Below the pieces are notes generated by a model. The model did not search any database. It saw only the letters and a program-made list of their open reading frames with translations, and had not been told where the DNA came from. A DNA stretch of 64,000 nt, from the NCBI RefSeq assembly GCF_900156885.1, contig NZ_FTOY01000010.1, forward strand, positions 434,001 to 498,000, read 5' to 3'. Origin of the DNA: Limosilactobacillus caccae (GTDB lineage Bacteria > Bacillota > Bacilli > Lactobacillales > Lactobacillaceae). Shown here one piece after another: positions 15,463 to 31,209 of the stretch. Position numbers and translations under genes: made by a program. The stretch's first letter is position 1, and each line of letters starts with the position of its first letter.

Positions 15463-15507
15463 ATGAGAAACCAAACTTTACAATTTAATAATTGGCAAAG
15501 CCGGTGA
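15463..15507 (+). CDS. Leader peptide, 14 aa, with one Trp codon
   Basis: ATG 15463 opens a 14-codon frame, MRNQTLQFNNWQSR, stopped by TGA 15505. AAGAGGAG at 15445-15452 gives a 10-base spacing, better than the ATG at 15456 (3 bases). The single TGG codon (15493-15495) lies directly before the 5' arm of the first hairpin (15497-15505), and the stop codon begins at the last base of that arm. A regulatory role is inferred from this geometry; the peptide itself matches nothing I know. Confidence 0.55.
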   Translation: MRNQTLQFNNWQSR

Positions 15508-15673
15508 CTCAGGAGTAACCGTTGTACGGATACAACCTGGGTTGATTCACAGATTGTATCTGTACCGGCTTTTTAATTGAGTATTAAGGCCTGTACGGAT
15601 TCACGTACGGGCTTTTCTTTATCTTTTTATTTAAGAAGGAGATTCCCGTTCGTGGAACTCCTTCTTATTTTTT
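15497..15673 (+). promoter_or_regulatory. Three-hairpin attenuator leader
   Basis: Three successive terminator-like hairpins lie between promoter and gene. Hairpin 1 (15497-15574): AAAGCCGGT with ACCGGCTTT, inner GTACGGATACAA with TTGTATCTGTAC, then five T. Hairpin 2 (15589-15620): GCCTGTACG with CGTACGGGC, then TTTTCTTT. Hairpin 3 (15632-15673): TAAGAAGGAG with CTCCTTCTTA, then six T. The 3' arm of hairpin 1 (ATCTGTACCGGC, 15558-15569) can instead pair with the 5' arm of hairpin 2 (GCCTGTACGGAT, 15589-15600) at 11 of 12 positions, so the two are mutually exclusive. No T-box sequence is present. Confidence 0.65.
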
Positions 15674-28243: not shown

Positions 28244-28672
28244 TTACTTTACGTTGACATACCCGTCTTGAACAAACTTTGTTCCGTAGATCAGGGTGTT
28301 TTCAACTGGACACTTTGCGGCAACGTCAGCAAGAAACTTCTTAATATCTTCGTCAGACTCATCGCTGCGTAGGTGTGGTTGGTAGTGGATTTCGGTGTAC
28401 TTGCGGACGTTTTTGCCATCAGCAACATCTTCGCGGTCAAGCTCCCCTTCAACAGTTACCCAGAAGGCGCGGAGGTCGAAGTTCCGCTTCTTTGCCAGGG
28501 CAGTTGCGGTGATTGCTTGGCAGGCACCGAATGAGGTGAGCAGGATCTCAACCGGATTCATCCCGGTATCGGTACTACCCGGTTCATCAAAGGTGATTTC
28601 AAACCCGCGGGTTCCTGCTGATACTTGCATTCCAGTCGTTGTCTTTGTGGCGGTTACCTTGTACTTAGTCAT
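28244..28672 (-). CDS. OsmC/Ohr-family peroxide-reducing protein
   Basis: 142-aa OsmC-like thiol peroxidase. The two redox Cys are in TSFGACQAITATAL and VAAKCPVENTL. These proteins detoxify organic hydroperoxides or respond to osmotic stress as dimers. It appears monocistronic, between the sensor kinase and the hydroxyacid dehydrogenase unit, with a GGAGGAG-type ribosome site. Confidence 0.9.
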   Translation of the reverse strand: MTKYKVTATKTTTGMQVSAGTRGFEITFDEPGSTDTGMNPVEILLTSFGACQAITATALAKKRNFDLRAFWVTVEGELDREDVADGKNVRKYTEIHYQPHLRSDESDEDIKKFLADVAAKCPVENTLIYGTKFVQDGYVNVK

Positions 28673-28747: not shown

Positions 28748-29737
28748 TTATTTAATTTCGTGCGGGGATGACTTACCAGCAAGGATGAGGCGAACGTCAT
28801 CGAGGGAGAAGTCAACCATGTTTTGCACGGCGCGGTTAGTGAAAAAGGCAATGTGGGGCGTTAAGATAACATTATCCATCTCGTGAAGTTCCTGAACTAA
28901 CGGGACATCAGCGAGTCCTTTTTTGCGGCGGTCAGTCATGACAACCTGGTTTTCCCCTTCGAAGGTATCGAGGGCAGCGGCGGCAATTTCCTTATTCTTT
29001 AGTGCGGTGACTAAGTCGGCGGTAACCACCACCGGTCCCCGACTGGCATTAACTAGTCCCGCAGATGCTTTCATTAATGCAAAGTCATTAGCGGTGATTA
29101 GCCCTTCGGAGGTCGGGTTGAGGTCAACGTGGAGGCTAACCACGTCGGCGTGCTTAAGAAGTTCTTCCTTTGAAACAAACTTAACGATTCCATCGAGGTC
29201 ATCCCGTGGTTTGATGTCATAACCAAGGACAGTTGCACCGAGAGAATGAAGGAGCTTAGCGAGGGTGCCACCAATTCGGCCGACCCCAATGATCCCAATC
29301 GTGGCGGTATGGATTTCAATCGCCTGCTCATTGCTAAACCACCGGTAGTCGTTATTAGCAACCTGCTGGTCAAACATGTAGGACTTCCGCAGCAGGCGGA
29401 ATATCTGCATTAGGGCATGTTCAGCAACACTGCGGGGCGAGTAGGCGGGAACATTGGTGACGGTTAGGCCGTTTTCGTGGGCCTTCCTAATGTCGACCAT
29501 GTCAAAGCCGGCAGTCCGGGTGGCAATTTGCGTTAATCCATTCGCTTTGAGTTTTGGGTAGATGTCAGCAGGAAGCTTGCTCCGTTGCTGGATGACTAGT
29601 CCATCGACGTCAGCAGTCATGTCAACTGCATCATCAATTAGTTTGGGTGTTGTGATGATTTCAACGTTATTTTTTTGCGCGTATTCCTTAATCGCCGCTT
29701 GCTCATCGTCGCGAACACTAGTCATTAAAATCTTCAT
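28748..29737 (-). CDS. D-2-hydroxyacid dehydrogenase (D-lactate dehydrogenase-like)
   Basis: 329-aa NAD-dependent enzyme reducing 2-oxo acids to D-2-hydroxy acids. The Rossmann motif is GIIGVGRIGGTLAKLL with Asp in GYDIKPRDD. Catalytic Arg is in VNASRGPVVV, Glu in LDTFEGENQ and His in NVILTPHIAFFT. Sequence resembles the D-LDH/D-HicDH group of lactobacilli. Its ATG directly follows the TAG stop of the aminotransferase, so the pair form an operon that could convert amino acids to 2-oxo acids and then to hydroxy acids such as phenyllactate; this pathway is inferred. Confidence 0.88.
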   Translation of the reverse strand: MKILMTSVRDDEQAAIKEYAQKNNVEIITTPKLIDDAVDMTADVDGLVIQQRSKLPADIYPKLKANGLTQIATRTAGFDMVDIRKAHENGLTVTNVPAYSPRSVAEHALMQIFRLLRKSYMFDQQVANNDYRWFSNEQAIEIHTATIGIIGVGRIGGTLAKLLHSLGATVLGYDIKPRDDLDGIVKFVSKEELLKHADVVSLHVDLNPTSEGLITANDFALMKASAGLVNASRGPVVVTADLVTALKNKEIAAAALDTFEGENQVVMTDRRKKGLADVPLVQELHEMDNVILTPHIAFFTNRAVQNMVDFSLDDVRLILAGKSSPHEIK

Positions 29738-30925
29738 CTAATCTGCCTCCTCCACAAAATTAGCAATTCTATTAACGGCAGTTTTGATATTGTCCATGCT
29801 TGTAGCGTAACTGATCCGTAAGTAGCCTTTACCACCAGCACCGAAGAATGAGCCGGGGATTACCGCAACTTGCCCGTTATTGGCAAGGTCAGTTGCAAAT
29901 TTAACATCATCATCGCCAAACTTGGCCGGTAACTTAGCAAAGACGTAAAAAGCACCGTTCGGGCTGGTAATTTCAAAGCCCATTTTCCGTAAGGCACCAA
30001 GCAAGAAGTCACGCCGTTCACGGTAGGCTGCCTTCATTTCAAGGGTGGCTTGGCGGCCATCCTCGGTATTAAAGGCAGCAACCGCGGCGGCCATGGCTGG
30101 ATCAGAAGCAGCGGTCACCATCATTGCGTGAATGGCGCTGACAGATTTCATCAAGTCAGCGGGACCAGCGATAAAGCCGATCCGGTAGCCGGTCATTGCA
30201 TGAGACTTCGACGCCCCGTTTAAAATTAAGGTTTGTTCGGGGATAAATTCCGCAATCGATGTGTGCTGACCTTCGTAGACTAGTTCGGAGTAAATCTCGT
30301 CAGCGATAACAACCAGGTTTGTGTCCTTGATTGCTGCCGCTAATGCTTGAACTTGGTCGTGGGTGTAAGTTACCCCGGTTGGGTTAGATGGGTAGTTCAG
30401 GATGATACCCTTGGCGTTAGGGTGACTGGCAAGCACGGCTTTAAGGGTTTCTGGGGTAAGGATAAAGTCAGTCTTGCTGGTATCAATTTCAACTGGGTTA
30501 CCGCCCAGGATATTCGTAACGGCCATGTAGAGGGGGAAAGTTGGCGTGGTGATGAGGATTTCGTCGCCGGGGTTAATGATCGCGGAGAGGGAGGCGTAAA
30601 TCCCTTCCGTTGCGCCGACAGTGACGGCAATTTCGCTGTCAGGGTCATAAGTCAGGCCGTAGCGGTCACTCATGAAATGGGCGATTGCCTTCCGCAAAGC
30701 AACCGTCCCGGTTCCTGGAGCATAGTGGGAGTCGTTGGCATTAATGCTATCAATGGCGGCTTGTTTCATTGCGTCAGGGACGTTGAAGTCGGGTTCCCCT
30801 AATGTGAGTTTGACGATTCCAGGAATGGCACTGACCTGGTAGTCAAAGGCACGGATTCCGCCGGGGGAGAGACGGGCGAAGTTCTTATTTAAACGGGATA
30901 ATAATTCTTTCTTTGTTGCTGGCAT
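29738..30925 (-). CDS. Class I/II aminotransferase, aromatic/aspartate type
   Basis: 395-aa PLP fold-type I enzyme. The PLP-binding Lys is in LNGASKSHAMTGYRIG; NYPSNPTGV and DEIYSEL are family motifs, and the late Arg in LRISYA binds the alpha-carboxylate. It resembles the AraT/PatA-type transaminases of lactic acid bacteria. The upstream leader peptide with Tyr-Ala-Phe-Trp-Phe codons supports an aromatic substrate. GGAGGAAT precedes ATG 30925. First gene of the unit with the D-2-hydroxyacid dehydrogenase. Confidence 0.88.
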   Translation of the reverse strand: MPATKKELLSRLNKNFARLSPGGIRAFDYQVSAIPGIVKLTLGEPDFNVPDAMKQAAIDSINANDSHYAPGTGTVALRKAIAHFMSDRYGLTYDPDSEIAVTVGATEGIYASLSAIINPGDEILITTPTFPLYMAVTNILGGNPVEIDTSKTDFILTPETLKAVLASHPNAKGIILNYPSNPTGVTYTHDQVQALAAAIKDTNLVVIADEIYSELVYEGQHTSIAEFIPEQTLILNGASKSHAMTGYRIGFIAGPADLMKSVSAIHAMMVTAASDPAMAAAVAAFNTEDGRQATLEMKAAYRERRDFLLGALRKMGFEITSPNGAFYVFAKLPAKFGDDDVKFATDLANNGQVAVIPGSFFGAGGKGYLRISYATSMDNIKTAVNRIANFVEEAD

Positions 30926-30959: not shown

Positions 30960-31064
30960 AAAAGGAGCCCTGAATGCTAACTGATTACATTCAGGGCTCC
31001 TTCAATTGGAATGAGTATAAAAGAGGATCCCGAATGTTTGGGTCATCCGGGAACGCCACAATGA
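30960..31064 (-). promoter_or_regulatory. Antiterminator/terminator part of the aromatic leader
   Basis: On the minus strand: a middle hairpin CCCGGATG/CATTCGGG (31029-31051) then a terminator GGAGCCCTGAATG/CATTCAGGGCTCC (30964-31000) followed by TTTTAG. CATTCGGGATCC (31025-31036) is an imperfect copy of the terminator's 3' arm, so it can pair with the terminator's 5' arm and act as an antiterminator. The middle hairpin would in turn sequester it. Confidence 0.65.
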
Positions 31065-31143
31065 AAAACACTGCTGGTTAGCGGACGACTGTGTCGCTAA
31101 ACCAGAAGGCATACGCTTGGCTTAAATGAAGTAAAGCAGTGTT
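31064..31143 (-). terminator. First hairpin of the aromatic leader, overlapping the leader ORF
   Basis: Outer arms AACACTGC (31136-31143) and GCAGTGTT (31067-31074), inner arms CTGGTTTAGCG (31095-31105) and CGCTAACCAG (31074-31083), then a short T-run. The inner 5' arm is made of the Trp-Phe codons and the 3' arm contains the leader stop codon, so translation and folding compete. Confidence 0.6.
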
Positions 31144-31149
31144 CATCAT
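31078..31149 (-). CDS. Aromatic leader peptide (23 aa) of the aminotransferase operon
   Basis: ATG 31149 (or the next codon, ATG 31146) with GGAGG at 31155-31159 opens a 23-codon frame ending TAA 31078. It begins MMNTALLHLSQA; residues 13-17 are YAFWF (TAT GCC TTC TGG TTT) and it ends SDTVVR. Four of five consecutive codons specify Tyr, Phe, Trp and Phe, all three aromatic amino acids, directly ahead of an aromatic-type aminotransferase gene. Overlap with mutually exclusive hairpins marks it as a probable attenuator leader. Translation has not been shown. Confidence 0.7.
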   Translation of the reverse strand: MMNTALLHLSQAYAFWFSDTVVR

Positions 31150-31181
31150 TGCATCCTCCTTTGATTAACTGATTGTTAATT

Positions 31182-31209
31182 ATTCTAATCTGTTTTTAAT
31201 AATTGTCAA
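31182..31209 (-). promoter_or_regulatory. Promoter of the aromatic aminotransferase operon
   Basis: Minus-strand -35 TTGACA (31204-31209), 16-base spacer, -10 TAGAAT (31182-31187), placing the start just ahead of the leader peptide's ribosome site. Confidence 0.8.

Follow-up and report, generated by a model that had tools for sequence, protein, structure and literature searches.

The leader of the his operon in enteric bacteria is a classical attenuator in which six segments, A to F, engage in alternating pairings. The E. coli pheA and trp leaders, as well as the multivalent ilvGMEDA leader, carry a run of codons for the amino acid or acids sensed, a stop codon near hairpin 1, and a terminator. 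Aromatic regulation in low-GC Gram-positive bacteria is said to have been covered by Panina et al. in 2003. For Firmicutes, His leader-peptide attenuators have been proposed earlier, as set out in passages of two papers (PMC2965389, PMC9413887); those of the latter place novel His attenuators in the B. cereus group, Eubacteriales and Erysipelotrichales, and have Lactobacillales use T-boxes. A leucine-rich attenuator peptide has likewise been proposed in S. aureus (PMC5794164).

The window analysed here is a 64,000-nt stretch of DNA from Limosilactobacillus caccae. On its minus strand, at 31209-30960, we describe a leader that very probably acts as a ribosome-mediated transcription attenuator, coupling an aminotransferase/D-2-hydroxyacid dehydrogenase operon to the charging of aromatic tRNAs. 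Support for this reading comes from the anatomy of the leader, the conservation of that anatomy, compensatory changes in helices of both states, and energetics. Like the his leader, it sets helices 1:2, 3:4 and 5:6 against 2:3 and 4:5, places its regulatory codons within or beside segment 1 and contains an intrinsic terminator; unlike the his leader, it has aromatic codons, precedes an aminotransferase/D-hydroxyacid dehydrogenase pair in Lactobacillaceae and lacks an Rfam match. With the pheA, trp and ilvGMEDA leaders it shares the codon run, the stop codon near hairpin 1 and the terminator, while differing from them in mixing Tyr, Phe and Trp in one run and in its longer relay. The Firmicute His leaders resemble it as cases of classical leader-peptide attenuation where T-boxes are usual, and differ in amino acid, genes and lineage.

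The mechanism, ribosome-mediated attenuation, is already known; its occurrence before this lactobacillus gene pair is not, and there is no report of this leader among the matches listed in the open-licence PMC literature. It also brings a conserved leader-peptide regulon into an order for which T-boxes are the usual description. A sequence-only reading of the locus had stated that T-boxes are what Lactobacillales mostly use for such genes, and this agrees with the passages of PMC9413887 on histidine and with a T-box in the same genome (described below).

Anatomy of the leader

The sequence-only reading had identified a promoter, a Shine-Dalgarno (SD) sequence, a 23-codon ORF with a YAFWF run, hairpins, a mimic of the terminator 3' arm and the terminator itself; re-reading minus strand 31209-30960 reproduced all of their coordinates. 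The features are as follows, with the basis of each in brackets (clades are defined in the next section but one).

31182..31209, minus strand: promoter, TTGACA (31209-31204), 16-nt spacer, TAGAAT (31187-31182) (sequence)
Minus strand: SD of the leader ORF, AAAGGAGG (sequence)
31078..31149, minus strand: leader ORF MMNTALLHLSQAYAFWFSDTVVR, 23 codons, ATG at 31149, stop codon TAA at 31080-31078 (sequence and conservation)
31099..31113, minus strand: regulatory codons 13-17, TAT GCC TTC TGG TTT (Tyr Ala Phe Trp Phe, YAFWF) (sequence; codons of 55 leaders)
31095..31105, minus strand: segment 1, CTGGTTTAGCG, 5' arm of hairpin 1, made up of the last base of a Phe codon, the Trp-Phe-Ser codons and one further base (pairing tests; clade C compensatory Trp-to-Lys change)
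31074..31083, minus strand: segment 2, CGCTAACCAG, 3' arm of hairpin 1, containing the stop codon (pairing tests)
31082..31089, minus strand: segment 2 in the alternative helix 2:3, GTCGTCCG, with its partner CGGATGAC at 31049-31042 (pairing and clade A alignment)
31044..31051, minus strand: segment 3, CCCGGATG, 5' arm of the middle hairpin (folding, pairing tests)
31029..31036, minus strand: 3' arm of the middle hairpin, CATTCGGG (sequence)
31025..31036, minus strand: segment 4, the mimic CATTCGGGATCC, which is the antiterminator and overlaps the 3' arm of the middle hairpin (4:5 duplex -17.3 kcal/mol)
31005..31017, minus strand: TACTCATTCCAAT, conserved stretch between the middle hairpin and the terminator (clade A and osmC copies)
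30964..31000, minus strand: intrinsic terminator, segment 5 GGAGCCCTGAATG (31000-30988) and segment 6 CATTCAGGGCTCC (30976-30964) (stem -27.6 kcal/mol)
30960..30963, minus strand: terminator U-run, TTTT (sequence)
31060..31160, minus strand: putative start-sequestering stem, in which the SD/start and codons 3-5 (31160-31135) pair with AGCAGTGTTTTTCATT (31075-31060) and a few further bases (-28.8 kcal/mol)

Two elements were absent from the sequence-only reading: the alternative pairing of GTCGTCCG with CGGATGAC, which would free the mimic (segment 4), and the long pairing between the SD/start region and the bases that follow hairpin 1, whose energy in the window is reached by 0/200 shuffles. 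The leader as a whole (218 nt) folds at -83.6 kcal/mol, as compared to -49.9 +/- 3.8 in 200 shuffles (z -8.8), and dinucleotide shuffles (n = 200) match the energies of the window duplexes in 1% of cases for 1:2, 2.5% for 2:3 and none for 4:5. A short ORF preceded by an SD, and predicted to be translated, lies upstream of the terminator here, and an aromatic ORF is present in all 55 distinct leaders.

No Rfam family reaches its cut-off over the leader, all matches listed to E 10 lying below their cut-offs, and the locus is free of any unrelated element of that collection. Like a T-box, the leader would answer to uncharged tRNA, and the T-box is in use in the same genome (L052); unlike it, the leader gives no RF00230 covariance match. 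The trpB motif RF04312, also a terminator leader before Trp-related genes (as a passage of PMC11109978 has it), is present in the window only at 15523-15624 and has no covariance match at the leader; unlike the latter it is a separate element with its own Trp-codon ORF.

Proposed mechanism

We infer stalling and the direction of the response along classical lines. When aromatic amino acids are plentiful, the ribosome would reach the stop codon in the 3' arm of hairpin 1 and cover segment 2; segment 3 would then pair with 4 in the middle hairpin, locking the mimic, so that terminator 5:6 would form and transcription would end. With uncharged Phe and Trp tRNAs (and, more weakly here, Tyr tRNA), the ribosome would stall on YAFWF and cover segment 1, allowing 2 to pair with 3 and the freed segment 4 with 5; the terminator would be blocked and the operon transcribed. 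If the leader is not translated, hairpin 1 would form by itself, the middle hairpin would be possible and the terminator would win.

Conservation of the aromatic leader ORF

We sampled 50 genomes of the genus, 38 of which hold an orthologue of the aminotransferase (at least 59% identical to that of the window). In 36 of the 38, a short ORF with an aromatic run lies approximately 195-300 nt upstream. One of the two misses is G042: 107 nt of contig remain upstream, and they are unlike the leader. The other is G034 (L132), whose record has abutted genes, lying on a single strand through most of the 10 kb examined, and no intergenic DNA; such a record would hide every leader and is probably a data artefact. 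In G027 the leader sits at a contig edge and the aminotransferase orthologue is absent from the assembly. Before the 11 paralogue loci examined (47-53% identity; a minority of the paralogues listed in the genus genomes) there is no aromatic ORF at the conserved place, chance ORFs with scattered aromatic codons being present at three of them.

A search of 396 genomes of the family yielded an aminotransferase match at E 1e-145 or better in 43. Among the 29 of these from other genera the leader is present in 19 and absent in 10. Together with the 36 of 38 within the genus, the compensatory changes described below and the lack of an unrelated Rfam element, this gives good support to the attenuator proposed by the sequence-only reading. 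As for named records (45 loci), all loci above 51% identity belong to Limosilactobacillus, Lactobacillus or Lactobacillaceae, the nearest, at 80%, being L. rudii and a pair of Lactobacillus records, of which one is partial.

Further analysis used 55 distinct leaders: 25 in clade A (near the window), 12 in clade B (deeper in the genus), and 14 in clade C and 4 in clade D (other genera). We dropped L013 (contig edge), L016 (no intergenic DNA), L017 and L123 (duplicate leaders) and L026 (near L007), as well as the repeat genomes L001, L003, L054-L065, L067-L069, L080 and L099-L101.

Across these 55 leaders the run keeps its aromatic character while its letters vary (YAFWF, YYFWF, FYYWFW, FYAYWF, YLAWFFF, FYFWYF), as expected of tRNA sensing. 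Trp is present in 48/55 runs and missing from seven, namely 6/14 in clade C (FYFKYF or YYFKYF) and 1/25 in clade A; in L058, Trp is replaced by Arg and the hairpin 1 arm shows no matching change. The residues upstream of the run differ among clades, and the run begins 10-12 codons after the start codon in 52/55 leaders. This near-constant distance also suits an arrest peptide, in which the nascent aromatic chain would stall the ribosome on a free metabolite rather than on uncharged tRNA and act through the same RNA relay, much as the TnaC nascent chain arrests the ribosome with Trp (PMC8429421). Since the aromatic residues change in kind and in order, those upstream of them lack conservation from clade to clade, and Lys or Arg takes the place of Trp in some leaders, we consider an arrest peptide very unlikely and retain the sensing of aromatic tRNA charging.

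Energetics and compensatory changes in the relay helices

The relay consists of five helices: 1:2, 3:4 and 5:6 in the stop state versus 2:3 and 4:5 in the go state. In 55/55 leaders a T-run is preceded by a terminator stem at or below -17.0 kcal/mol, the best hairpin having been chosen per leader without a shuffled control, and an intrinsic terminator precedes the first gene in all 55 as well as in 20/20 further loci checked (of 26). The 4:5 duplex reaches -8 or lower in 54/55. Compared with dinucleotide shuffles at the 5% level, helix 1:2 stands out in 47/55 leaders, 2:3 in 27/55 (A 7/25, B 6/12, C 12/14, D 2/4) and 4:5 in 29/55 (A 24/25, B 2/12, C 1/14, D 2/4). Swapping arms between dissimilar species weakens pairing, with mean z of -1.9 for 1:2, -1.0 for 2:3 and -2.1 for 4:5; within clade A the effect on 2:3 is near zero (z -0.35).

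The competing stems show compensatory changes in the alignments of clades A, B and C, whose counts are of non-independent events because the rows within a clade are related. In whole-leader alignments of clade A the terminator region mixes sub-clades, so we counted pairs on alignments A4 and A5, which are trimmed, and on A2 and A3, which are per clade. In 6/14 clade C leaders the Trp codon TGG has become AAG, and both altered pairs of hairpin 1 are restored by the 3' arm (U-A 8/A-U 6 and G-C 8/A-U 6), with a pair of 2:3 flipping alongside (A-U 8/U-A 6). Changes on both sides are also found at three pairs of 4:5 in clade C and at 7/14 pairs of 2:3 and 4:5 in clade B. In clade A, the 2:3 core of six pairs is formed in 97.8% of cells and one pair varies (U-A 9, C-G 8, U-G 3, other or unpaired 3); both-side changes are limited to that 1/6 of the pairs, which 251/500 shuffles also achieve.

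The strength of the terminator, together with a 4:5 duplex that mostly does not rise above shuffles in clades B and C, is what one would see if a constitutive terminator merely followed a chance ORF and nothing were regulated. Such a terminator accounts neither for conservation across several genera with compensatory changes, nor for the window 4:5 duplex at 0/200 shuffles, nor for the recurrence of the leader before related genes, and it is the least probable of the explanations that we weighed.

The start-sequestering stem beats shuffles at 5% in 21/25 clade A leaders (B 2/12, C 0/14, D 0/4). It shows no covariation in the alignments, 80.3% of cells being paired as compared to 79.8% in shuffles, and given strong energy in clade A without covariation we keep it as putative.

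We also observed conservation of TACTCATTCCAAT across clade A, where the L021/L022/L058/L095 group has an altered form, and across the osmC copies described below, with no such conserved stretch in the clade B and C alignments. We rejected it as an anti-SD: its duplex with the SD/start region fails against shuffles (clade A z -0.27, 4/25 at 5%; C 1/14; D 1/4), with 4/12 at 5% in clade B and a borderline value in the osmC copies (z -1.55, 1/6). A conserved stretch with no known pairing role could point to a ligand-binding riboswitch or a protein-binding leader to which the ORF is incidental. Its absence from clades B and C, the lack of Rfam matches in 13 sources other than the L052 T-box, and the retention of the ORF in 55 leaders despite sequence change make this highly improbable as compared to a translated attenuator.

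Ribosome position and folding

We modelled stalling by masking the RNA as far as 12 nt beyond the first base of the A-site codon. By equilibrium folding, the probability of the middle hairpin in the window is 0.70 without a ribosome and 0.87 with the ribosome at the stop codon, and upon stalling it is 0.75 at Tyr13, 0.27 at Phe15, 0.03 at Trp16 and 0.04 at Phe17. A Tyr13 stall thus keeps the middle hairpin and Phe and Trp stalls disrupt it: the window circuit switches as expected, with Tyr as the weakest signal. The earlier claim that all three aromatic aminoacyl-tRNAs are sensed is plausible in this light, but the sensing would be uneven, given the Tyr13 value and the 7/55 leaders without Trp.

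A loss of the middle hairpin greater than 0.5 upon stalling is seen in 20/55 leaders (A 11/25, B 7/12, C 1/14, D 1/4). Folding of the two states agrees with the earlier reading in the window, but yields a clear equilibrium switch in these 20 leaders only; switching in the remaining 35 would need kinetic ordering. At the point where segment 3 has just emerged, its pairing with upstream RNA is higher on stalling than at the stop codon by more than 0.4 in 29/55 leaders (17/25, 7/12, 1/14 and 4/4 for clades A to D); the difference in the window is small (0.75 versus 0.62). Clade C is poorly explained by equilibrium estimates in this model. We discarded a score of antitermination as any pairing of the terminator 5' arm, as it barely separated the states (difference above 0.3 in 20/55; 7, 5, 6 and 2 by clade). 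The antiterminator pairings are present and partly covary, and in equilibrium folding their dependence on ribosome position is clear in the window and in 20/55 leaders overall.

Operon genes and predicted regulon

The leader precedes the following genes.

29738..30925, minus strand: class I/II aminotransferase, ArAT-like, 395 aa (Pfam PF00155; best PDB match 4my5, a putative amino acid aminotransferase)
28748..29737, minus strand: D-2-hydroxyacid dehydrogenase, 329 aa, starting directly after the aminotransferase stop codon (PF00389/PF02826; best PDB match 4xkj, a D-lactate dehydrogenase)
28244..28672, minus strand: OsmC-like protein, after a 75-nt gap on the same strand (PF02566)

In this species the operon perhaps ends with the OsmC-like gene. 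The enzymes are named by family, ArAT by analogy, and aromatic substrates of the aminotransferase are suggested by family resemblance; on that resemblance, the codon run matches amino acids related to the controlled genes. A D-2-hydroxyacid dehydrogenase gene adjoins that of the aminotransferase on the same strand at 48/55 leader loci versus 0/48 leaderless loci, the latter having aminotransferases of less than 60% identity, many distantly related, and six of them less than 400 nt of downstream sequence.

Searching the family with a covariance model built from 13 clade C leaders turned up 44 matches, spread over 36/396 genomes (L116 was left out of model R2). All 31 matches outside the model-building set (26 newly read, 5 already known) have an ORF with an aromatic run, which is partly by construction because the model contains the codons; the start codon, the stop codon, the terminator (20/20 checked) and the neighbouring genes are independent of it. 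The 26 newly read leaders lie upstream of an aminotransferase (12), an amino-acid permease (8) or an EIIC-like protein (6). One permease was scanned (PF13520; the nearest NCBIfam model, BcaP, was below its cut-off) and one EIIC-like protein (PF13303, PTS_EIIC_2); the others resemble these at 77-93% identity. The permease and EIIC-like loci (AA_permease_2 8, PTS_EIIC_2 6; L204-L217) are from other genera of the family, and the permease leaders, e.g. MQNYLSVAQAFSYFTYFG, are without Trp. A permease relative occurs within the stretch read at 5/12 of the aminotransferase loci and an EIIC relative at 1/12. Judged by their sequences, the leaders of the aminotransferase/dehydrogenase, permease and EIIC-like genes form a small predicted regulon, and the leader suggests aromatic substrates for three proteins that family models name only vaguely.

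Metabolic direction

Aryl-lactates such as indole-3-lactate are under study as signals to the host. In some lactic acid bacteria, neighbouring ArAT and fldH/HdhD genes have been proposed as a functional indole-3-lactate operon, the passages on this pair not stating its regulation (PMC10040830). The sequence-only reading, too, had the operon's genes able to make aryl-lactates, a direction that we now doubt. Prephenate dehydratase (PF00800) was found in 3/50 genus genomes (G003, G026, G032), all without a leader-controlled aminotransferase, and in 0/36 leader-bearing ones; chorismate synthase was found in 14/50, and 26/36 leader carriers are without it (10/36 with), which places the leader operon mostly outside de novo synthesis; 41/50 of the genomes reach 90% completeness or more, and gaps may account for some of these absences.

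In genomes where the search for prephenate dehydratase came up empty, induction by aromatic shortage is more in keeping with the salvage of aryl-keto or aryl-hydroxy acids than with production of aryl-lactates. We infer recovery by the operon: the data suggest that it regains aromatic amino acids from aryl-keto or D-aryl-hydroxy acids. The window's genome has chorismate synthase and a prephenate-dehydrogenase match over its cut-off, and Tyr synthesis may be a further use of the operon there. More tentatively, and with rather more doubt than belief, we propose that Lactobacillaceae possess a leader-peptide regulon dedicated to aromatic amino acids (aminotransferase and D-hydroxyacid dehydrogenase, amino-acid permease, EIIC-like membrane protein), with a codon set that is adjusted from lineage to lineage (Trp loss) and a core operon that regains aromatic amino acids from aryl-pyruvates and D-aryl-lactates in species unable to make Phe. 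If so, the release of aryl-lactates (e.g. indole-lactate) would be a salvage pathway running in reverse in cells that are not starved. With a codon-reading attenuator, the operon would answer to the level of aromatic aminoacyl-tRNA, and it is predicted to be kept low in rich media.

Related leaders elsewhere

The trpB motif RF04312 at 15523-15624 lies upstream of a trpX gene (NCBIfam equivalog over its cut-off). At 15463-15624, plus strand, the ORF MRNQTLQFNNWQSR precedes the motif. A passage of PMC11109978 treats the motif, an orphan, as a strong riboswitch candidate without excluding a classical attenuator. At E 0.001 it occurs in 88/148 Lactobacillales genomes, in 36 of them over the cut-off. 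All 30 loci examined, taken from among the best-scoring matches, have an SD-like-preceded ORF with Trp codons that ends 9-21 nt before the motif, with two Trp codons (W-x-x-W) in 26/30; the selection required an SD-like stretch, chose ORFs with Trp and had no shuffled control. The motif is probably a Trp leader-peptide attenuator.

The promoter-side 46 nt of the aromatic leader (31209-31164) are 87% identical to the DNA upstream of the T-box in the same genome. We observed that this T-box leader (L052, 410-655), before a gene that we take to be brnQ-like, shares its promoter stretch with the aromatic leader. The similarity between L002 and L052 had been a candidate for a second leader copy and was set aside as a shared promoter before a T-box; model R1 finds a single leader copy in this genome at E 0.01.

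In six genus genomes (L148-L153) a related leader stands before osmC. It shares the promoter type, the middle hairpin and TACTCATTCCAAT, and has a hairpin resembling a terminator. Its short ORF is non-aromatic, M[NT]NLVSL in five and MAKIVIVISFLCVL in one. Four of the six genomes are without the aminotransferase orthologue, G042 has the orthologue at a contig edge, and G048 has both.
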